NCBI GenBank assembly: GCA_036674765.1
Contig: JARVKI010000056.1
Location: 220,430-284,429, forward strand
DNA from: Seiridium cupressi
Taxonomy: Eukaryota > Ascomycota > Sordariomycetes > Amphisphaeriales > Sporocadaceae
Direction: 5' to 3'
Length of the DNA stretch: 64,000 bases
Below, piece after piece: positions 9,525 through 24,346 of this stretch (the stretch's first letter is position 1; every line of letters starts with the position of its first letter). The notes beneath the pieces were generated by a model. The model was given only the letters and a program-made list of their open reading frames with translations, made no database searches and was not told the DNA's origin. Both the position numbers and the translations under genes were made by a program.

Positions 9525-12173
9525 ATGAGTCAGCCAGGCTATAGTTCGAGAGATGACCGCTCAGACACATTAGTCGGTTCGGTAGGCAAAAACGTATGAA
9601 TCCGTCATGACTCATTCCAGCTGGAAGTGACTTTACTGACTTTGCGGCAATTTAAGTCACTGTGCGAGGCATGTACCCGATTGGGACTTGGCATTCACCG
9701 CTTCAAAATACAGCCTCTGCCGTCGACGAAACGTACTGGGCATGTCCGTGCAAACTCATTGCAAGTTTCTACGACATCTACTCTCATAGGATCCTTCGAG
9801 GATATCAAGGCTCGATCTGGCAAATGCCCCTTGTGTTTTCTTGTTCTCGATTCTGTAAGGCATCAGCCCGGAAGCATAAAGCTACGGAGCACGAGGAACA
9901 ACACTGGTTTTCATCCCGAGCTGCAGAGGGCTGAATGTTCCTTAACTTGGGAAACTGACGGTCGAGAAGCGGGTTCAACAAAAGGCTTGGGCAACGATAG
10001 CAAGAGGTCGGTTCGGGGGCTAACTAGGCGCTTGCATATCCGCTGGAATGACCCCCAACTGAAAGATGCATATCTAGTGTACGTCGCCCCTGAGACGCCT
10101 TTCAGAACAGCTTCAGATGCCGAGCGGGTCTGGGACCCTTCGGTCCTTTTTCTGGGCCGCCAGATAACCTACGACATCGAGAACCAGGCTTTGATAAAGT
10201 CCTGGTTGGAATTATGCCAAGATTCACATAAAGGACCATGTCGGCAGACAAACCCTGAGAGATTGAAGAAGTTCTTTACAATGATCTCTCACTCCTATTT
10301 CGGGGTGATAGACGTACAAAAGATGCAACTTACGAAACTGCCTAGCTCGGCTCCCGAAAATTACAACCTTCTAAACTCGAAAGCGAAGGACCGCATACCG
10401 ATGAGCCACGAGCCCTATGTAGCTCTGAGCTATGTCTGGGGGACCAAACAAAACGTGTACCGCACGCTACTCGAGAATGTGATGATCCATCGCATGCACG
10501 GCGGATTGGAGAAGGAGTTGAAAAGCCTACCCAAAGTCATCCTAGACACGATAGATCTTGTTCGGAGACTGGGCTACAAATATCTATGGGTAGACCGCCT
10601 CTGCATCGTGCAAGATAGTCTTGCGAGGTCTTGGAAACTGAATGCGTATAACATGGATCTGATTTATGGCAACGCCGATCTCACAATTTGTGCCGCAGAC
10701 GGCGACGCTGCAGCAGGATTACACGCCATGTCTCCGGGAACACACAATACGAAACAATGCCGCGGACGAGTGGCAGGTCTGAACCTCATGGTCACCCGGC
10801 CACCAGAGATGTATATTAGATCTTCGGAGTGGAACGAGCGTGCGTGGACTTTTCAGGAAAGGCTGCTCTCCAGACGATGTCTCATCTTTACAAATTCGCG
10901 CGTGTATTTTCAGTGTCGATCAACCGGCATGTCTGAAGATATATATGCCGATCGTAAAGGTGCGGGATGGTCGCTCGACCTCAAAGACGCCCCTATGCAA
11001 ATGCTTCGTCAGTTGGATAGCCGTCCATTTTGGGTCTACATGAAATCCATTGAACTGTATACAGAGAGGAAGCTTTCGAATGCAGCTGATATCCTAGCTG
11101 CGTTCAGCGGCATGTCTAATCTCATCAACGAACATTTGAAAGCCCCGTTCATCCACGGGCTCCCCAGCTCCCACTTCGACTTGGCGTTATTGTGGGAGCC
11201 CGTCAGCGTTGTGAGGCGCAGGGTTCTGGGGGACGACAAAGATGGGAAGGATTCGCGGCTGAGCGCTGAGAAAAAGACCAACAATTCAGTTCCGGACTTC
11301 CCCAGTTGGTCATGGGCTGGATGGGAGGGCCCTGTCGCTTATAAAGACAGTGTCGCCACAGGTCTCCTTGACAACGTTTCAGATTGGCTGGATAGCCATA
11401 CATGGATCGAGTGGTGGGTGAGAGATGGACATGGAGATCTCAGACCTCTGATGGACTGGAACTTGTCCAAAGTATCTGTTGGCGAGGAGAGGTGGAAAGG
11501 ATATAGAAGCCCCGTTAGCAGAAACAACCGCCCTCGCAAGGGCGACCAGTATAAGCCGGAGGAGAAATATAACCGAAGGGAGAATATCATTGATGCCGTG
11601 GCCGTGGTGGAAAGGCACGTTGGTGCCACAAGATCCAAAAGTGGTTGGACTTCGGACAGCACTGATAGTGATAGTGATAGTACATCTATTGCCGACAGAG
11701 ATCGTCGCTCGGCCCACGATAACATAAGAACTTACGATTCCAGACGAGAGCACGACTACTACCCATCTAGGCTAAGACCTGCGAGGGAGGATGACGAAAC
11801 TGATATCGTTATACGCGCAAAGGGAAAAGATAGAGACTACGGAGGAGTACGTGAATATGGGGGTAATCTCGAGGAAATATATCTAATCCCAGCTGGAGAA
11901 CCTGGGAGAACGGAATCACGGAAACCAATACGGGCGCACGACCGAACAGTGGACCAAGATGGACTTCGATATTCACCACCACTACGCCGACGAGCGAGGT
12001 TTCTTCAGTCCAGATATCCCGATGACGATCACAGTCTACCGGAAGCCAGGCGGAGTCGGCGCTACGACGTAGAGATACGAGAACCTCCTTTTCCAGTAAT
12101 AATTAACAACCAAGTTACCTACCGATCGGATAGCGAAGGAAACTACGAGTATAAGCCTGCGCTCAACGCTTGA
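9525..12173 (+). CDS. HET-domain (heterokaryon incompatibility) protein with unusual charged tail
   Basis: HET-domain proteins trigger cell death after non-self recognition during hyphal fusion. The long open frame (in frame from 9621) has no ATG near its start. A convincing first exon runs from ATG 9525 to 9581 (MSQPGYSSRDDRS...), with an intron at 9582-9620 ending TTCCAG; at 39 nt it is short for a fungal intron. The HET core starts with YVALSYVWG (around 10418), followed by YKYLWVDRLCIVQD, IYGNADLTICAADG and RAWTFQERLLSRR. A C-terminal block FPSWSWAGWEGPV with HTWIEWWVRDGHG follows at 11295-11445. After about 11510 the protein switches to a low-complexity Arg/Asp/Ser-rich tail (DSDSDSTS, then ETDIVIRAKGKDRD) that does not look like HET sequence. 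The expected remaining HET C-terminus is found separately at 12568-13080, so this gene is probably interrupted. Confidence 0.8.
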
Positions 12174-12179
12174 TTTTTA

Positions 12180-12566
12180 AACAGGCAGTTTAACGATAAA
12201 GATAAAGAATTTAATATTACGCTAAAAAATTACCTTTATCGAATTATAAAAGTAAAATTTAACTTTTAAACGGATAATTTTAAATTTCTTTTTATAACGA
12301 ATATATTATTATTAAAATAAATTTTAAAATAATATATTAATATTTAAATTAATCATTAAAATAATAATTATTTATATAAAAATATTTATTATATATATAT
12401 TTGTTTATTTTTTTATTAATTTTATTTATTTACGTTTATTTAATAAATAAAATTAATTATAATTAATATTAATTAATAAATTTTATTAATTATTATTAAT
12501 CGTTTAATTCTAATTAATTTTAATTATTTATTTAAATTTGTTATATTAATACTTAACGTATTTATT
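12180..12566. repeat. AT-rich island, RIP-like
   Basis: Nearly 390 bp made up almost wholly of A and T, with sharp edges against normal-composition DNA on both sides. It is rich in TTAAT/ATTTAT tracts and carries no open frame. Such islands in Pezizomycotina usually mark transposon remnants mutated by RIP. The position matters: it separates the HET reading frame from a fragment that looks like that protein's own C-terminus. Confidence 0.7.
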
Positions 12567-12567
12567 T

Positions 12568-13080
12568 TTGCGTAGCCGTAACCGCTTGTCTCCGGCCGTT
12601 TATCTGGCTTATACTTGCGGGATAAGGTTTATCCCGTCCCGGGGTCCCTTTGGGCCCATGTTCGTAATACCTCTCTTGCCCATCTTGCAGTTTCTCACAT
12701 GGCATACCCACTTATACGTCTACCCCGATGAGAGAAGGGGGATCCATGACGTCCAGGCCGGTCGAAAACGCCATCATGTCGCCGACAGCTCGGGAGATTG
12801 GTGCGGGTCAATCGTGCTGGACGACCGGTGGGCGGCTGGGCCAAGAGACACTTCCCAGAGCCGGGAGTTCATTGCGATTTCCGAGGCCAAGAAATTCACC
12901 GAGGCCGAATACAGTGAGTGGACTTACTATATTCCCAAGGAACGTGAGCAGAGCGAATGGGATCTGTTTTACGTTCTACTAGTCGAGCGTACCGAGGAGA
13001 GGTGGGAGAGGGTGGGACTCGGCAAGGTTTTCAAGGAAGCCTTCCGTAATGCGACCTGGAAGGAGATCATGCTAAGTTAG
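12568..13080 (+). pseudogene. Detached C-terminal fragment of a HET-family protein
   Basis: An open frame of about 170 codons with no ATG at its start. The translation has blocks I know from the far C-terminus of a subclass of HET proteins: LLPILQFLTWHTHLYV, then GDWCGSIVLDDRWA, EFIAISEAKKF, WTYYIPKEREQSEWDLFYV and WERVGLGKVFKEAF, ending in WKEIMLS. These blocks normally follow the PSWSWAGW / HTWIEWWVRDG region present in the gene just upstream. It is therefore read as the 3' end of that gene cut off by an insertion, or less likely as the relic of a second HET copy. It is unlikely to be expressed as an independent gene. Confidence 0.7.
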
Positions 13081-13555: not shown

Positions 13556-15233
13556 CTATCCTCTAACCTTCCATTGCAATGTCTCAGAGTCTAGATTATC
13601 CCGCTTCGTTGTCTCCCAGCCGTCACGGATTATCTCTGCGCATTTTTTATTTCGGGGCGTAATGACAGCTTGGAAGGGCAGTGGCGAGGCCAGGAAACCT
13701 TGAGTGACTTGTGCAGGTTTCGGAACGACTTCGTTCCCGTTGTTATCAAGCGGTCGCTTGATTTCAAACGCCCACAGCAGCCTCGAGATGCTGAGGAAGA
13801 GACTTCGATCCGCCACGTGGATACCAGGGCAGATTCGCCGTCCGGCCCCGAAGGCAAACTGGTCACGTTGCGAGACGTCTGGGTTGACGGCAGCATCGTA
13901 GAAACTTTGTTTGTCGTCTTTGAAACGGTCGGGGTCGAATTGACGTGGATTTGGGTAGCGGGAATCGTCGGTATGGATTGTGTAGACATTGTTCACGAGC
14001 GCCGATCCCTTTGGCAGTCGGAATCCCATATAGTGATCCTCCTGTGTAAGGGCGTGAGGGATAGCACCCATGATTGTGACGGGCATCCAGCGGAGAGACT
14101 CCTTGACGCACCCACGTATGTACGGCAAGTTTGGCTCGTCTTCGGGCAGCGGCGTCCTGTCCGAGCCCACCACGCGGTCGAGTTCGGCTCTTGCGCGCTG
14201 TTGCACTTCGGGAAAAACGAGCATAGCGCAGATAAACCAAATTAGAGTATTAGCGGTCGTATCCGTTCCCGCTTCCAGGAGCGTGCCGGTGATATACGCG
14301 GCGAAGTCATCGTCGAAGCCGTGCTTGTTCTGTTCTCGAACGAGACCCACACTGAAAGAGGGGTTTGGCTTGTCCGAGGAGAGTATATCGGCTTTGGCCC
14401 TGTCCCAGTGATACCTGTAAAGGGTCTTCTCCCGCTTGTGGTTTCTTGCGGCACGCTGCTTTGTGGGGAGCATCCACGTCGGAAGCATCTGCAATATGGG
14501 AAGAAAGTCCATCAGCGCGGCTAGTCCTGTTTGCGCGAGTAGGAGAAACTCATCGAGCACCACCATGAGTTCCACCAAGTGGGGGTTCTCGTAGCTACAG
14601 GTTCGATACCCAAAGGTGGTGGTTGTCATCAGAGAATCTGAGTATCGACGAAAGTGAGTCTTGAAATCTTTCGGTTCGTTGAGGATGTCATACATCATTT
14701 GTCGGATCTCAAGCTCTTGGTAAGGGTAGAAGGCCTGCGCAGCATTGACATTTAGCTGGTCGTGCATGATCCGCCGAACCATCCTCCAAGTCTGTCCGTA
14801 TCCCATCATCAAGACTCTTAGCCCCCCACTGGCGACCCTTTGACCTATGTACATATCCAGTCTGTCGCTGCTTACAGCGCCTTTCTTGTCCATGATGTCC
14901 TTTATTGCACGGTCATTCGAGAGAACAATCATGGTTTTAGTTCCCAGTATCAGGCTGTACACAGGTCCATACTCTTGCGCCCACTTCTGGAACTGCAAAT
15001 GGACATCGTGATCAGGCATCTGCAACTAGTCAGCAAAGTCGTGGATAGGGTATTTGCTGCAAACACAATGGAACATTAAGCCTCACAAGATGAAGATTTC
15101 CTAGTATGGGTATAGTTGGAGGTCCCGGCGGAAGGCCTGCTGGCCGTTGCCCGATGCGTAAAAGCTTACGGGCAGCGATACCCAGTAAGATGAGGCCTAC
15201 AGAGGCGATGATTTGAGATGAAATGTTGGCCAT
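13556..15233 (-). CDS. Cytochrome P450 monooxygenase (CYP620-like style)
   Basis: An ER-anchored heme-thiolate monooxygenase; substrate unknown. Two exons on the minus strand, 15233-15087 and 15019-13556, with donor GTGAGG and acceptor TTGCAG, give about 536 aa, a normal fungal P450 length. The N-terminus has a membrane anchor (residues 1-25) and the proline hinge GLPPGPPTIPILGNLH. The oxygen-binding helix has AGTDTT, the K helix has KESLRW (ExxR), and the heme loop FAFGAGRRICPG carries the cysteine ligand near residue 446. The LILGTKTMIVLSNDRAIKDI and SDRLDMYIGQ blocks are typical of fungal CYP families near CYP620. All catalytic motifs are intact. A frameshifted relic resembling its 3' end lies at 24925-25175, suggesting a former second copy. 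Confidence 0.92.
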
Positions 15234-16257: not shown

Positions 16258-19200
16258 TCAGATACTACCGGCTATAATATTTCCCGAAATGTCGCTCAAG
16301 TATCCCAACCTCCGATTGCCCGTAGCGTTCGTGAAGTACTTCTCAGCCTCGTACATCTTGGCCAACTTCTTTCGCGTGCCACGGATACTGTCCTCATTGT
16401 GGAACTCCGGATTCAGCAACTTCTGGTCAATCACGTCGCAGAAGATCGCCTCCGCCTGTTGATAATGACGTCCATACTGCTCTTTGACCTCGGACCGCTG
16501 TTCGCTCCGCTGCTGCTCCTGCGTGAACAGCTGCTGCGCCCGCTTGCGGTAGCTCAGGGCCTGATTCTCTAGTGTTGCCAGATAGATCGGGTGCGATCGT
16601 CCAAGAGATTGCGACATGATGTCAAATGCTTCCTTATACTTCTCGTCGGCTCCCACAAAGTCACCTTTCACGTCACATAAAGCGGCATGTTTCGCGATAG
16701 AAATCGCGGTGCTGGGATGCTGCTTTCCCAGCGTTTTCCTCTTGATATCGGTCGTCCACTCAAAAAGCTCCTGTGCCCTGGCGAAGGTCCCCCGCAACTG
16801 TAGTATCTGTGCCAACTCCTCTGCTGCGTCGAGCGTTACGGAGTTGTTGATGCCCAGTACGATCTTGTATGACAACAGTGCTTGCTTGTACTTGGCTTCT
16901 GCATCGTCAAGCCTACCCAAATGCTTGAGTGTTGCCCCTAGCCTGTGCACTGTGAATATCGTCCTTGTGTCCACTGGGCCAAAGTCCTCCTCCTGGTATT
17001 TATCTAAGCTTTTGTAATGTTCCGTGGCAGTTTCAAGCTCTCCAGTAGCCACAGCTTCTATGGCTTTGGCTAGTTCCACCCGGCGACTGAGCGCGCGATC
17101 CTTCAAATTGATCTCGTCGATGTTGATTTGTTCGAGCTGCTCCCTACATTTTGTTATTTTGCCCGCTTGTTGGTATAACGATATCAAATTGAGGCGTGTC
17201 TCAATTTGTTCCCGGGCTCTCATTTCTTCTGGTTTTGCCAATGCCAACTTGAAACATTTGATTGCTTCTTTCCGTAGGCCTTGTCGCATGAAAACTCCTC
17301 CGAGGACTTGCCATTCGATTGCCGACCGATTATCAGTGCGGTCGTCCCAAAGGTTGTGAATATTTTCGTTGATGCGATCTGACATGTCATAGCATGCCTT
17401 CGCATGTGGCACAATGATTCGTTCCGATAGCTGAGCCTCGAGGACGACGGGAGTATAACTGTGATGGCGGATAAACCTGGTGCAGCAGTACGATGCAGTC
17501 CATGCGCTACGTAACTCTTCCTGCTCGTTTTTAATCCAACTTCCCTTGATCCACTCTTTCGCGTTCTGATGCAGTATGTAGCTATCTCTCGCCCCACCTA
17601 TCCTCTCCGGTGGAGTCGTCGTGGAAGCATTTGGTTCAGCGACTCGAAGTATGATGCTCTGGCTTTCGAGGTCTTCCACTATTTTGGCCAGTGTCCCAGC
17701 GCCCGAAGACCCACCGTAGTTGTGACTACACCGATCAGCAATCATTTCCAGTAGTGAGTAAGGAAAAGCATTGCTTGAGAGTATCGTGCAAACTCTCAGT
17801 ACCTGAATGGTTAATGGTGGATTTGCTGGTAATGGGTTTAAAGTGCGCAGAAATCTCCGTGGGGTTGCTATTAGCTCCAGAAAATGGGAGGGTGTTTCCT
17901 GTGTGGCTTGGAGGTATCTGGCTGCACTGCATATGGCCAGTGGCTGACATCCGAGTTCTGTGACGATCTTCTTTGATATATTCTCTGAGAGCAAAGGATT
18001 TTGGACCATAGGTGTATGCCCATGGATGGGCTGAGGCGTCTCCATGAGTTTATTGAACAGCTCAATTGCTTCATCATTTGCCCATGCGTGGATCTCTATG
18101 GCCTCTCCAAATGGGCAATAGCTTCGCTCCTCCGAAATGAGCACTAGCTGGCCGTGTTTCGAAAGTGGAATAAACTCTAGCAGGTTGTAGCTAGGACGAA
18201 CATTGTCGAATACTAAAAGCCAGGTATTATTTCCCATCAAGAGCCAGTCTTTCGCACCTTTGATGGCTGACTGGACTTCCACAGGATCCAGGAGGTCTAT
18301 AGACCCCTTGTCAAGCATGGCATGTGGGCTTGGAATCCCCATGTCCCTTTCGACTTGAGCTCTAGCGTCAGCTGGATTTGGGAACTGGTTCGTGTGGTAT
18401 GTCTCGGCGTAGTAGTCGACTATGACTTTGAGGAGATGTAGGTAACCAGTAATCACCGTATGTCTACTCTCGGCATTCATCCAGAAAACTGATCTTCCCT
18501 TGTCGACGAGCTGCTCGCCATAGTCTCGCACTAGAGTTGTTTTGCCCACTCCTGGTGGACCATAAACTGTCACGATAGCAAAGTCTTTGATGCTTCGAGG
18601 TACCTCAAAATATTGCTGAATCCTCGTGATGAATTCGTGCCGGATGACAGAGTCGTATGGCTGTCTGGTAGAAGGCCCAGAAGAATACGGCAGAATGCAA
18701 AAGTTCTTTTCCACATTTGCGATCGTCTTGCCCTCTATTGCGCCATTAGCCTCAACATACCGCAGTTGTCAAAAGTCCTCTAGGCATTTCTTACTGAGGG
18801 GTTTCATGACCGGTTCATATTTGAGTAGCTTTTCTGCCGCACGGGGTTTGGATTCAGTCAACAACTCCCCGAATAACCTTTCGAACTTCACATAGTCCTG
18901 ATCTTCTTTGCCGTTGAATTTGACCAGCCCCGTGTGGTTTCTCTGAAGGCTGATATAAGTGTCGCCTAGCCTTTTGAACGGCTCGGGACCATTCACAATC
19001 TGCCAGTACCGAATAAATATTTTGCCACTAATTAGGACTAAAACACATACCAATGCTTTTCGCCCTCTGAAAGATGTTGCTTTTGTTTCGTATACTGAGA
19101 GAATCTTGAGCCCTGAGCGGATAGGTTTGTAACTGCCTAGTTCGTTCTGCAGCCAGTGGGCATCGTTTATCAGTTGTTTCTCATTACTCTTAAGCCAGCT

Positions 19201-19844
19201 GTCCGGGTCAAGGCTCAAATGAGAAACGTTTCGAATGATATCAGCAAGCGAGCTTGGCTTAATATCATCGTCCGGAGTGCCAAAGAAGGCAATGCCCCCT
19301 GTGAGGACTTCGACACGCCGGATATTCGAGTCAGGAGATTCTGTCGAGTAGATGAGCGCTCTTTTAACTATCAAACCGCCAAGGCTGTGTGCAACAAAGA
19401 CCAGTGGCCGATTTGAGGTATTGTCTCCTTCCCGAAGGGCGGCAATCTTATGAATCAAGTCATGAGCGCGGCTATACAGCACTGTACGAACGTGTGCCTG
19501 CGATTTAAATAGGTCGGGCTCATATGAATACGTCATGATACGAGCCTGTTTCCCGCAGTCTTCGGCAAGCCCAGCTTCAAGCCAGTTAGGCCGGTTGAGG
19601 GTATTGTTACCCCATGTCCACGTTTTGAATCCGCGAGCCAAGCCATGCACGGCGATGATACTGCTGTACATTAGTATATGGCCATTGAGTTAATAAATTT
19701 GGCACCTTACTCAATGGTCGGTATCTCTGATTTATAGACAATGTCCAGTCTGCTGGGTCCGGATTCAGAGATGAATTCATGCTTCAGAGCTGTCCGAACT
19801 CGCCGCAGCTTATCCACCACAAAGCTCAATCTCACCTCGGCCAT
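16258..19844 (-). CDS. NLR-like protein: alpha/beta-hydrolase - NB-ARC - TPR
   Basis: Fungal NOD-like proteins are STAND ATPases thought to sense non-self and switch on an effector domain. Joined model, minus strand: exon 1 19844-19711, exon 2 from 19663 or 19660 to 19051, exon 3 18999-18795, exon 4 18734-16258, about 1,141 aa. The hydrolase domain (residues about 45-290) has IIAVHGL and the nucleophile elbow VAHSLGG (Ser near 138), as in SesB-like lipase/PGAP1-type effectors. The NB-ARC P-loop YGPPGVGKTT is near 375-384, and a Walker-B-like WLLVFDNV follows. The C-terminal third has TPR-like helical repeats (RRVELAKAIEAVATGELE, LGATLKHLGRLDDAEAKYKQ). The 51-nt intron 19000-19050 is a multiple of three, so its retention would insert 17 residues. 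A NAGNAG acceptor (CAGCAG) precedes exon 2. The neighbouring CHAT protease and gasdermin-like gene support a cell-death role. Confidence 0.85.
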
Positions 19845-20556
19845 TGGGAGCGCGACGCAATATCCCAAGTTCTGTTCACCACTCTTTGACCTCTCATCAA
19901 TTGCGCGATCATCGGACTGTTAAAGATGTATGTTCTCGAGATCGCGCCCTGCGCCGTTCCGTTGGTCGTACTGGCAATAGGGCCTTGGCGTTTTGGTTGT
20001 TAGGTGAAAAGTGAACAGCAAGGCTTGGGAACTGTAAGAACCCCTCCTCCCAGGGATTTATGGCTGACCCGAACAAGTCCTTGGCGCTGTCACGCTCGGC
20101 AGGCCCGAGCCAATCACATCCAAATCGCACTGCCAGCGGGAATGTGATACACAAATGCGTCGTCAGGCTGTGCAATCTTCCGCCTGATCCTCGGGGCGTT
20201 CTAAGTAGCAGATCTGTTCCATTGTCATGCACTTCGAAGAATATGTCAGTTGCATTCATTCATGAGGACATTCCGAACTCCCTTTTACTCGATGTGACAC
20301 TGATGAACGCGGTATGGCCATGCCCGCCCAGAAGACATTCCAGACCATAGATTCACATGCATGCGATACTACTTCAGTGGCTTTGTGTTATGAACAGGCA
20401 CTCTGGCTAGTAATAAACTGCCAATAAGAGACAATACTTCTCTGCCCCAGCGACAGCCGATTGAGCATAGCCTGCTTTAATCTGGTCCGATAACCCTACG
20501 AAGCCCGTGTTGCCGTTATCTGCAACCGAGATTCTAGAAAAGAACTGCACTATTCA
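19845..20556. other. Intergenic region upstream of the NLR gene
   Basis: About 700 bp between the NLR start and the 3' end of the CHAT protease gene, both on the minus strand. It should contain the CHAT terminator and the NLR promoter. An open frame at 19909-20259 (minus) shows no family motif and no convincing splice to the NLR, so it is not called. Confidence 0.45.
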
Positions 20557-22610
20557 TCATGCATAATTAGTCAGACCGCTCAGATCTGGCGGAATTTGCA
20601 ACGCATCAGGCAGATCCTCCACGTCATCATACACGGAGCTACCGTGAGACCAATATTTGACATACTTCGGAGGGTCATTAGCCCATTCTTTCGGCATCCA
20701 TTCCAGCTCCCCATTACATCCTATTATGATAGCATAGTCTCTCTTGCTCATATCCAGCAGAAATTCACGCATCTTGCGAATGATGGTCTCTCGTGAGGGT
20801 CCATGCACATCAGATCCAGTGAACACCCCCTGAAACACATTGTCAAGGCCTTTAAACACGTGTACTGTTCCTCCAAGTGCATCAGGAAGCCTATGGCCCC
20901 ATGCATACCCATGAGTATGCCTTGGCAGAGTCACATGAGGCGGAGGTATTCCCTGCGTAGGCCCACGATTACTAAGTTCGATGTTGTAGAACGATACTTG
21001 TTGGACGAAGTTGGTACAAAGCCAGAGGTGGGATAAGCCTTGTATAAATCTGGTCAATTCTGGCTGCTTGTCAAATGAGTTACTAGCATACACAAGACGA
21101 TGTGTCTGCAAGTAGACCTCCAACTCCAGAGAAATGAGGTCCAGACGAGGAATGTATTCTAACTTTCCCGGTTGTTGGCTGTTCTGTTGATGCCGTCGCC
21201 GAAGAATGGGTGGAACCTGTGCTAGGACACGATTACAAGCTCGAAGAATATCAGCTAGTCTTCTCGCTTCACGGTGACGGACGCTGGGGTTGTCGCGTGC
21301 GTAGTAGACATATAGGAAGTCGTCTCGGTACTGGCGCTTACTAGGCCATCGACTTGGGTTATCCCGCAGCGCTCTCCGCCCTTGGTGTGCAGCCGCCTCG
21401 AAGGAGAATTGGCCATTGGCGGCGAGGAGTGCTCGATAGAAGGCTTCATTGTGTGCGAGCACCGAGTCGGTACCCGCGCGGCCCCAGACTGCCGAGACGC
21501 CGCGCACATTCGCGCGGATGAAATGTTGTGCCATATTATTGGCACGACCTGCACACTCATATGCTGACCAACATGCTGTCATGACCACATGCTCAATACG
21601 AAATTCTTCGATAATCTTCGCCACATCAGCCGCCTTCTCAGCGAACACGCCACTTGGGTCCTTCTCCTTGTCGCTCTCGGTAAAGATCAAGCGACTTTCA
21701 GACTTGTCGCTCGTGTTAGCACTATGCAAGGTATCCAGTTAGCTTGAGTTTATCACTACAGAATGGTAGTAGCATTGTCGAAAACATACTCAGCGCCGTG
21801 CAAGTCAAAGTGTATAATGTTAAAATGGACGTCCTGGCTAGCTCTGAAGGCCAAGTGCTCCCGCAACTTCTGCTTGGACCCTGGTCGAACTATCTCAACC
21901 ATGATCCGCGTCCTCGCACGGTTCAAGTCGTGTTGCAGTTGCATCAGGGGTCGTTGTGCTAGGTCCGGGTCGGCGTCTTTGTTCCTTCCTTGCTTTTTGA
22001 GATTCCTGGCAATAACCAGAAGGATTTTCACAGTCTCGTTCTCTTTCTTCTGGATCGCTAACAGTGGGTCGGGGTGTGGTCGGCGGACTCCTCCTTTGAA
22101 GTCGATGACTCGCGATACTGCTATGGTGTATGGATGTTGACACAACTCGTTGAGCGAATGGCCCTCGAGAAGCTCCCATTTGATCGAGTGTAAACCCCGG
22201 CCTCGTCGAATATTCTTCTTGTGCTCTTCGATGACATAGATTACGCAGCCACGAGCGTTGGCAGAGAAAATGCCGTGCTGCTCTTTGAACTGCTCAAAGG
22301 GCAGCTGAGCGAGTAGATCGGTGGCATAGACACTAACGCCATCGTTCCAGTATGGAAGATCTGGGTGTTCGCGAGCGGGGGGAGAATTAATGCGGGCCCG
22401 AGCAAGGACGTGAGCGGATTCGGTGACATAGTCGTTGAAGTCGTATCGATATGATGGTTCTACGATGACGTGACTTTGAGGACCCGGGCGGTCGTTGATT
22501 TCGAAGCGCACATTCCACGTTTTCTGATGGGGGGCGGGCCGCGCCGCCGCCGCCGCAGCAGCAGCATTGTCCGGAACTTCGTAAATAAAGATCTTGTCAA
22601 CTAGACTCAT
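20557..22610 (-). CDS. CHAT-domain (caspase-like) cysteine protease
   Basis: CHAT domains are caspase-fold peptidases related to separase. Two exons, 22610-21790 and 21721-20557, are joined across a 68-nt intron (donor GTATGT, branch GCTAAC, acceptor CATAG) to give about 661 aa. The CHAT core covers about residues 150-400. GLHSIKWELLE marks its start, IIHFDLHGA carries the catalytic His (about residue 271), and VVMTACWSAY carries the catalytic Cys (about 324). GVSAVWG and an AAHQGRRAL helix follow. The join is supported because the His-containing strand ends in exon 1 and continues as a normal CHAT strand in exon 2. The N-terminal 150 residues and the C-terminal 250 are not recognised. The gene lies beside an NLR on the same strand and head-to-head with a gasdermin-like gene, the arrangement reported for fungal gasdermin-activating proteases. 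Confidence 0.82.
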
Positions 22611-23392
22611 TGCACGCCGGCGATCTCAACCATCACGCAAGAGACATAATGCAATAGGTCAAGGAAGAACACAAAACGGCCTGATGGTCATGCAGACAGC
22701 ATTTAGAGTGGGCGCGAAACTGAGCAGTAGGATGGCCGCCCGGTGACGTGACAAGGCTGGGTACGGGAGGTTGCACGACTGCAGCCGCTTCTATAATAGG
22801 TCACAAGCGCCGCCAAATCCCTGCCAATTACACCTACGATGCGCACCCAGCCCCAGAGCCTGCCGCAACTTGCAGTGAAGGGGGCTGGGCTTGGGTGCTT
22901 CCTGCATTTCGGTGTGAAATGTATTGGTTCCATTTTCATGCTGTCTCGGCGGGCGGAGACATCGAGTCATCTTGTGTACATACAATGTAGTCACTACATT
23001 GCTCAGCCGCCCAGAACGCCCATTCAGTCAGCCACCGCAATCACAGAGAAACTTTCAGCAGTGGTACGCGTGCCCCCCGCAGAGCCGTTGGGGCAAACTG
23101 CCAGCTTGGGGGCTCTGATTGTGATACATGAGTTTTAGAGGGGGAAGAGGGTGCTATGGTTGACATGCGTCAGTGTGCCTTGGCGGAGGCCTCGAGTGAC
23201 AAGATCACCGAGCCTTGCGCGCAGAGAAGCACGGAATAAGGCATGCATTTATACCTAATGTGTTGCGCATTGTGGAGTTTGCGTTGGGATTTGATTCTGA
23301 TCCACCATTAGCTTTTGCGGCCATCAAGATTTTCCCTATTATAGTTCCGTCACTAGTTTAAGCTACTTCGACCTGACACTGAAGCTTCCTTC
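22611..23392. promoter_or_regulatory. Shared promoter region of the protease and gasdermin-like genes
   Basis: A 782-bp intergenic region between two divergent start codons (CHAT on minus, gasdermin-like on plus). It lacks a plausible gene and must hold both promoters, which would allow coordinated expression. I see no confident TATA box or known operator. Confidence 0.5.
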
Positions 23393-24346
23393 ATGGCCAC
23401 GACAAGAAGCACAAGAACCCGGCTGGAAAGCACACCTCGCAGCCCCATCTTTCTAACACATCCACCGATCCTCGCGAATGAATATCGCGACAAGCTCATT
23501 GGGGCGTGCATCGCCGACCCATATGACCCAACGAAAGATTATACGTCCATCGATGAGCCTTACCCCATAGAACTACGCCCGAAAATTGATCCAAAGCCAG
23601 TAGACATCGACAACTATTACGACGTCCTGAACACCAGCTCCAACAAACATGTCAAGGCTACATTCGAGAGGATCATCACTGCCTTCTTTGAGCGCAACAA
23701 TGAGACCACCGAAGCTCGTGAAGCTGCCAGCGCGAAGTGGTGGAAGATGGAAACACCGCAGGAAAACTTTAGGACACTCATGAGCGACAAGGGTTATTAT
23801 GAGTCCGTGTTTGCGCTTCTGGACCGAAATTCTGGCGGCCCTGTCTATCTGGTCACCAATATTTTAGTCCTCTCGGCGCCCAAGATCGACAAAGCGAAGG
23901 CATCGTCACGAAGAGACGGGGCCTCGGCTGCTGTACCAGATCCTCAGACCCATGGCACAACCAACATCGTGGATGTCGGCGGCGAAGTTGGCCGATCGAC
24001 TGAAGGCTCAACTGGAGGTCAATTCCGGCACGAGATGATCGTCGGCCTCGGCGTCTACGAGGTCTATCTCGCCAAGCCGCCGGCGACCAGTCGGCTGAGG
24101 GGCATCTTCAGACGGAAGAACCTCGACCCTACCATCTTACCGGTGCCCGTCAACGAACAGGTGCTACGTCATCTCCGGATGGGACGTTATCAAGCCCAGC
24201 CCTACGATGGCGCCAAGTTCATGAGCCACAGCGCCGAGGAGAAGGGAGATCAACCACAGGGCAGCGGCAATGCTCTTGGTTTCGCTCTGTACTTCCCGGA
24301 AGAGTCAGCTGACGAAGCCGCATCCGTCTCTCGACCGAGAAGTTAA
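23393..24346 (+). CDS. Probable gasdermin-like (RCD-1/HET-Q1 type) pore-forming protein
   Basis: A single-exon gene for 317 aa, without signal peptide or membrane helix. The layout fits fungal gasdermins: an N-terminal segment with LIGACIADPYDP and DYTSIDEPYPIEL, a helical region (residues about 80-130), then YYESVFALLDRN followed by VYLVTNILVLSAPKID. A glycine-rich spacer with few large hydrophobics leads to a final strand block MIVGLGVYEVYLAKP, and about 75 C-terminal residues remain. Fungal gasdermins usually run 250-300 aa and are kept inactive by a short C-terminal part removed by a protease, often encoded next door. Here the neighbour is a divergently transcribed CHAT protease. The call rests on the remembered family pattern and on context, not on a database match. 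If wrong, it is an uncharacterised cytosolic protein. Confidence 0.58.
   Translation: MATTRSTRTRLESTPRSPIFLTHPPILANEYRDKLIGACIADPYDPTKDYTSIDEPYPIELRPKIDPKPVDIDNYYDVLNTSSNKHVKATFERIITAFFERNNETTEAREAASAKWWKMETPQENFRTLMSDKGYYESVFALLDRNSGGPVYLVTNILVLSAPKIDKAKASSRRDGASAAVPDPQTHGTTNIVDVGGEVGRSTEGSTGGQFRHEMIVGLGVYEVYLAKPPATSRLRGIFRRKNLDPTILPVPVNEQVLRHLRMGRYQAQPYDGAKFMSHSAEEKGDQPQGSGNALGFALYFPEESADEAASVSRPRS

Follow-up and report, generated by a model that had tools for sequence, protein, structure and literature searches.

Fungal gasdermin genes commonly lie close to protease genes: about 80% of them cluster with one (63% S8, 19% CHAT; PMC10197012), and CHAT proteases are given as about 17% of gasdermin-paired proteases elsewhere (PMC10989679). 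In Podospora anserina, a gasdermin is paired with a TPR-bearing CHAT protease (PMC12881547), and HET-Q1 is cut at F238, losing 40 C-terminal residues (PMC10989679); RCD-1 is controlled by allelic partners and not by cleavage (PMC12881547). In Aspergillus fumigatus, one of the incompatibility genes is reported to encode a CHAT protease (PMC11138114). Some NOD-like receptors (NLRs) bear a CHAT protease (PMC10197012); in the protease-bearing NLRs described in PMC10197012 and PMC12881547, the protease is part of the receptor. SesB-like domains are found on 13-14% of ascomycete NLRs (PMC9815663). Here we describe a locus of Seiridium cupressi, lying in a 64,000-nucleotide stretch of contig JARVKI010000056.1 (hereafter the window), in which all three genes of a putative cell-death locus were found: a 317-aa gasdermin-like gene, a 661-aa CHAT protease gene, and a 1142-aa hydrolase-NTPase-TPR NLR gene. 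We consider it probable that the first two make up a cell-death unit of the known kind that couples a fungal gasdermin with a CHAT protease, the gasdermin being very divergent here.

A sequence-only reading of the window had described a 317-aa, single-exon, gasdermin-like gene head-to-head with a CHAT protease with an intact dyad, and had taken such pairs to be known from other fungi. Each of these points stands, the last in agreement with the literature (PMC10197012). The two genes face each other across a 782-bp gap, and a protease gene is thereby found within 10 kb of the gasdermin gene:

23393..24346, plus strand: 317-aa gasdermin-like gene, an uninterrupted single open reading frame (ORF)
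22611..23392, no strand: divergent intergenic region, 782 bp separating the facing CHAT and gasdermin start codons
21790..22610, minus strand: CHAT exon 1, carrying the His271 codon (21798-21800)
21722..21789, minus strand: CHAT intron, GT-AG, 68 nt, inferred from the sequence
20557..21721, minus strand: CHAT exon 2, carrying the Cys324 codon (21571-21573) and ending at the stop

A search among 5.8 billion proteins gave the 317-aa protein a family of nine members including itself, whose alignment we call A1; the six species-named members belong to Neopestalotiopsis, Biscogniauxia and Apiospora. Relatives from these genera are E8E14_007348 of Neopestalotiopsis, F5X99DRAFT_368784 of Biscogniauxia, and PG986_001544, PG985_000484, PG994_009009 and PG996_008571 of Apiospora. 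A second homology round with the A1 profile returned the same nine members and added none. The genome (an assembly of 45.4 Mb in 228 contigs, to which all genome-wide searches refer) holds no second copy of the gene and nothing matching the metazoan gasdermin model PF04598 at E <= 10, and a search of viral contigs for relatives gave 59 pattern matches and no relative.

The relationship to gasdermins was reached by comparing A1 with a second alignment, A3. The seed of A3 is a short ORF from the same genome, whose best PDB match is RCD-1-2 (E 0.18). It was chosen by eye from a screen of ORFs of at least 150 aa in 9 of 20 stretches around the S8 and CHAT places of the genome; it had not stood out when 690 ORFs were compared all against all. 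A3 comprises 24 of the 28 proteins from the protein search with this seed (E <= 10), the short or partial P0010, P0011, P0033 and P0035 being omitted and two weak matches, P0036 (E 1.2e-3) and P0037 (E 0.35), retained. Since A3 matches RCD-1-1 (E 3.1e-14), RCD-1-2 (E 3.7e-14) and HET-Q1 (E 8.5e-5) in the PDB, it can be used as a fungal gasdermin profile.

We found that A1 aligns to A3 (hhalign) with a probability of 94.3, an E of 9.7e-8 and a score of 58.6 over 205 columns, collinearly along residues 1-231 of the 317-aa protein. This score is above all controls run. A hundred permutations of columns gave at most 21.5, a hundred of six-column blocks at most 28.5, and the reversed alignment 23.0; the score of 58.6 lies 13 standard deviations over the mean of the block-permuted controls. 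Four protease alignments compared with A1 in the same way gave probabilities of 0.3 or less. The match survives the halving of A3 (90.7 and 78.0 for the separate halves), and reaches 95.9 (E 5.9e-9) when three solved gasdermin stretches are added to A3, in a run made without permutation controls. As a yardstick, the HET-Q1 stretch against A3 has a probability of 93.1, compared with 94.3 for the window family, a value that slightly flatters HET-Q1 because this stretch was the portion that A3 had already matched. Among the aligned landmarks, the window-family IGACIADPYDPTK stands opposite LGNIIADPLRPAK of P0012, and PVYLVTNI of the family stands opposite PVYMITGx of the A3 consensus. Two smaller comparisons of A1, with the single seed gasdermin (probability 1.0) and with a 55-residue piece of RCD-1-2 (5.4), were too weak for use and were set aside. 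Homology to the N-terminal pore-forming domain was thus found indirectly, through A3, and by this profile evidence the 317-aa protein is identified as a remote fungal gasdermin homologue over its predicted pore-forming region.

The part of the protein that follows residues 233-260 carries a motif near its C-terminal end, F-x-LYFP, that is conserved in eight of the nine family members, the ninth (P0009) being truncated. Residues 233-260 are themselves the least conserved among the binned stretches (mean majority share 0.54, P0009 excluded), and we infer that they represent a linker and the likely cut region.

Spliced from its two exons, the neighbouring gene encodes a 661-aa protein that matches the CHAT family PF12770 with 28.4 bits (cut-off 24) over residues 220-398, corresponding to positions 101-272 of the 289 of the profile; the ORF of exon 2 alone scores 19 bits. 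By motif, the predicted His/Cys dyad is intact, with His271 in HFDLHGAD and Cys324 in MTACWSA, which we take to be the catalytic residues from general knowledge of CHAT proteins and from comparison with a CHAT ORF on another contig (C117). The divergent neighbour of the 317-aa gene is accordingly assigned to the CHAT-family cysteine proteases, with a dyad predicted to be in place. Besides CHAT, Pfam at E <= 1 recognises no domain in the spliced protein, be it a repeat, an NTPase or a TPR. Neither exon matches another place in the genome, and a six-frame PF12770 search finds one place above the cut-off (L044, G000:C117:17500-27400), with one TAG within the match and no gasdermin-like ORF of at least 150 aa seen beside it by eye; such counts are lower bounds, because the search misses the CHAT gene of the window.

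Several results weigh against these assignments. The 317-aa protein has nothing above the curated cut-offs of Pfam or NCBIfam, no PADLOC match at all, and no phmmer match in the PDB at E <= 10; its match to the HAD-hydrolase family TIGR01549 of NCBIfam (E 3.8e-4, 20.9 bits for a cut-off of 23.3) is sub-threshold, as is the one to Pfam DUF234 (E 0.016), which was dropped; both would point away from gasdermins. The A1 profile, which is shallow (effective number of sequences 1.9), retrieves from the PDB a single chance-like kinase match (E 0.45) and no gasdermin. Aligned with the three solved gasdermin stretches alone, A1 reaches a probability of 11.2 and a score of 28.5, the best of 100 permutations being 24.5, and singly the stretches give 11.0 and 3.0 (RCD-1) and 1.1 (HET-Q1). 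The solved stretches used were those portions that A3 had already matched, which is to their advantage. A hidden Markov model of A3, searched against 699 sequences, lists eight of the nine family members above all decoys, but their E values range from 5.6e-4 to 0.52, and the ninth member, P0008, is not listed. On the protease side, the homology spans only part of the PF12770 profile, and the CHAT protein matches no PDB chain at E <= 10.

The genome also contains a second fungal gasdermin ORF (L028:3525-4082, minus strand; G000:C138:65524-66081), beside a divergent S8 protease. It is 98% identical to a S. cupressi protein and seems to be missing its N-terminal part: the alignment with a full-length relative starts at residue 91 of that relative, and the stretch that the relative matches has two stop codons. 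The listed relatives include short ones in S. cupressi (189 aa) and S. unicorne (199 aa), and one of 285 aa in S. cardinale.

The third gene lies 712 bp from the CHAT gene, on the same minus strand. It can be read as a single gene with its start at 19844 and its stop ending at 16258, encoding 1142 aa and interrupted by three inferred short introns:

19711..19844, minus strand: NLR exon 1, start codon inferred at 19844
19051..19663, minus strand: NLR exon 2, core resembling an alpha/beta hydrolase and including AHSLGG (Ser138)
18795..18999, minus strand: NLR exon 3, in which the hydrolase-like region ends
18735..18794, minus strand: inferred third intron of the NLR gene, 60 nt, GT-AG, CTAAT
16258..18734, minus strand: NLR exon 4, NTPase of AAA/NB-ARC type bearing the Walker A motif, followed by TPRs and the stop

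The in-frame stop that separates the hydrolase and NTPase ORFs falls inside the inferred third intron and would be removed by splicing. The sequence-only reading had seen here a hydrolase-NB-ARC-TPR gene, of which the TPRs are clear (TPR_12, E 5.2e-17, above the Pfam cut-off) and the motifs are present (the AHSLGG elbow at Ser138 and the Walker A GPPGVGKT from residue 376), while AAA_16 stands at its Pfam cut-off (32.5 bits for 32.6) and the remaining families score below theirs: NB-ARC at 18.8 (23.5), PGAP1 at 18.6 (24.3), DUF676 at 17.2 (20.3) and Abhydrolase_6 at 17.6 (26.3). The labels hydrolase and NB-ARC therefore denote sub-threshold matches together with motifs. The hydrolase-NTPase-TPR architecture is a common one. 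With the 818-aa C-terminal ORF of the gene as query, five further places in the genome are matched at E <= 1e-4, in each case through the TPR region. At E <= 0.001, 8 NB-ARC and 29 NACHT places, one of them common to both, make at least 36 distinct ones in the genome, a lower bound, as the NLR of the window was itself missed by that search.

Other features of the neighbourhood are:

19909-20259, minus strand: 116-aa candidate ORF from the ORF list, within the 712 bp that separate the NLR gene from the CHAT gene
13556-15025, minus strand: cytochrome P450 ORF (PF00067, E 1.5e-71), between the HET-domain gene and the NLR gene
12000-12999: AT-rich stretch, 36% GC
9627-12173, plus strand: HET-domain gene (PF06985, E 6.6e-29)

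The HET-domain gene is 4 kb off the 3' end of the NLR gene, with the AT-rich stretch and the P450 gene intervening; overlapping A/T-rich inverted repeats lie at 12435-12535, within the AT-rich stretch. The neighbourhood thus carries several incompatibility-type genes.

What the 317-aa gene is, and how its product would be controlled, can be explained otherwise. It might be an unrelated orphan whose gasdermin match is a profile artefact, as the absence of any family over cut-off (DUF234 and TIGR01549 being the nearest) and the weak direct match to the solved gasdermins would allow; this is very unlikely given the distance of the A1-A3 score from the block-permuted mean, its collinear alignment and its persistence when A3 is halved, and given a CHAT protease neighbour, which is the context expected for a gasdermin. 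Alternatively, a genuine gasdermin might be regulated by an allelic partner and without cleavage, the CHAT gene being incidental; there is a precedent for this in RCD-1 (PMC12881547), but the head-to-head position of the CHAT gene, and a C-terminal part whose motif near the end is kept in eight of nine members, make such a mode highly doubtful here.

The remaining alternative concerns the NLR gene, which the sequence-only reading had proposed as a possible third part of a candidate cell-death locus. The hydrolase-NLR would be a sensor activating a separate CHAT protease, which in turn cuts the gasdermin; such a split pathway can be envisaged because Pfam recognises no sensor domain in the CHAT protein, that is, no repeat or NTPase (E <= 1) by which it could serve as its own sensor. 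It would amount to a three-protein pathway resembling mammalian pyroptosis, from an NLR sensor with its own lipase-like arm through a stand-alone caspase-like CHAT protease to a gasdermin pore, with a gasdermin subfamily that the searched libraries miss, a scheme we regard as improbable. Adjacency, at 712 bp on a shared strand, is what would make the NLR a third member, a membership that we doubt. In favour of such membership, any one place would have an NLR at 1 kb or less with a chance of about 0.5% (at least 36 places with a footprint of 6 kb each in 45.4 Mb), a probability that is post hoc. Against it, the NLR has a predicted effector-type hydrolase of its own, SesB-like NLRs are common (PMC9815663), and a HET-domain gene is also close by, so that incompatibility-type genes may just be abundant in this neighbourhood. 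On balance the split pathway is unlikely. The gasdermin/CHAT pair is the part of the three-part locus that is supported; the hydrolase-NLR more likely serves, in the same neighbourhood, as a receptor of its own for cell death or defence than as a member of the unit.

For the two-gene unit that we favour, the gasdermin would be made as a silent precursor that its own C-terminal part, of 55-85 residues, keeps inactive. The CHAT protease would be activated by a trigger, possibly non-self after hyphal fusion or infection, and would cleave the gasdermin where conservation is poor, near residues 233-260. The released N-terminal part might then insert into the membrane, form a ring-shaped pore and lead to cell death.

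The nine-member family represents a putative fungal gasdermin subfamily that is unnamed by Pfam, NCBIfam and PADLOC and was reached here by profile-profile comparison alone, and further gasdermins may be missed likewise. The locus also offers a clean candidate for the question of whether a fungal NLR can act upstream of a CHAT protease that is a protein of its own. In the part of the literature that we searched, we found no paper on a gasdermin in Seiridium, and none that places a SesB-like NLR next to a gasdermin/CHAT pair.

One of the closest known systems is HET-Q1/HET-Q2 of P. anserina, where again the C-terminal part of a fungal gasdermin is short and a protease gene adjoins. The matches of HET-Q1 and of the window family to A3 are about equally good; in direct comparison the two are not significantly similar, and HET-Q2 is an S8 serine protease whereas the protease of the window is predicted to be a CHAT cysteine protease. 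RCD-1 of Neurospora crassa resembles the window protein in a motif at an equivalent position of the layout (VYMVTGI in RCD-1-2, VYLVTNI here), but it acts by allelic partners and its direct match is weak. The window NLR appears to have the alpha/beta hydrolase, NTPase and TPR architecture of ascomycete SesB-like NLRs, and differs from them in adjoining a gasdermin/CHAT pair. The P. anserina gasdermin paired with a TPR-bearing CHAT protease follows the same two-gene logic, a CHAT protease beside a fungal gasdermin, and the locus of S. cupressi departs from it in a CHAT protein with no TPR recognised by Pfam.

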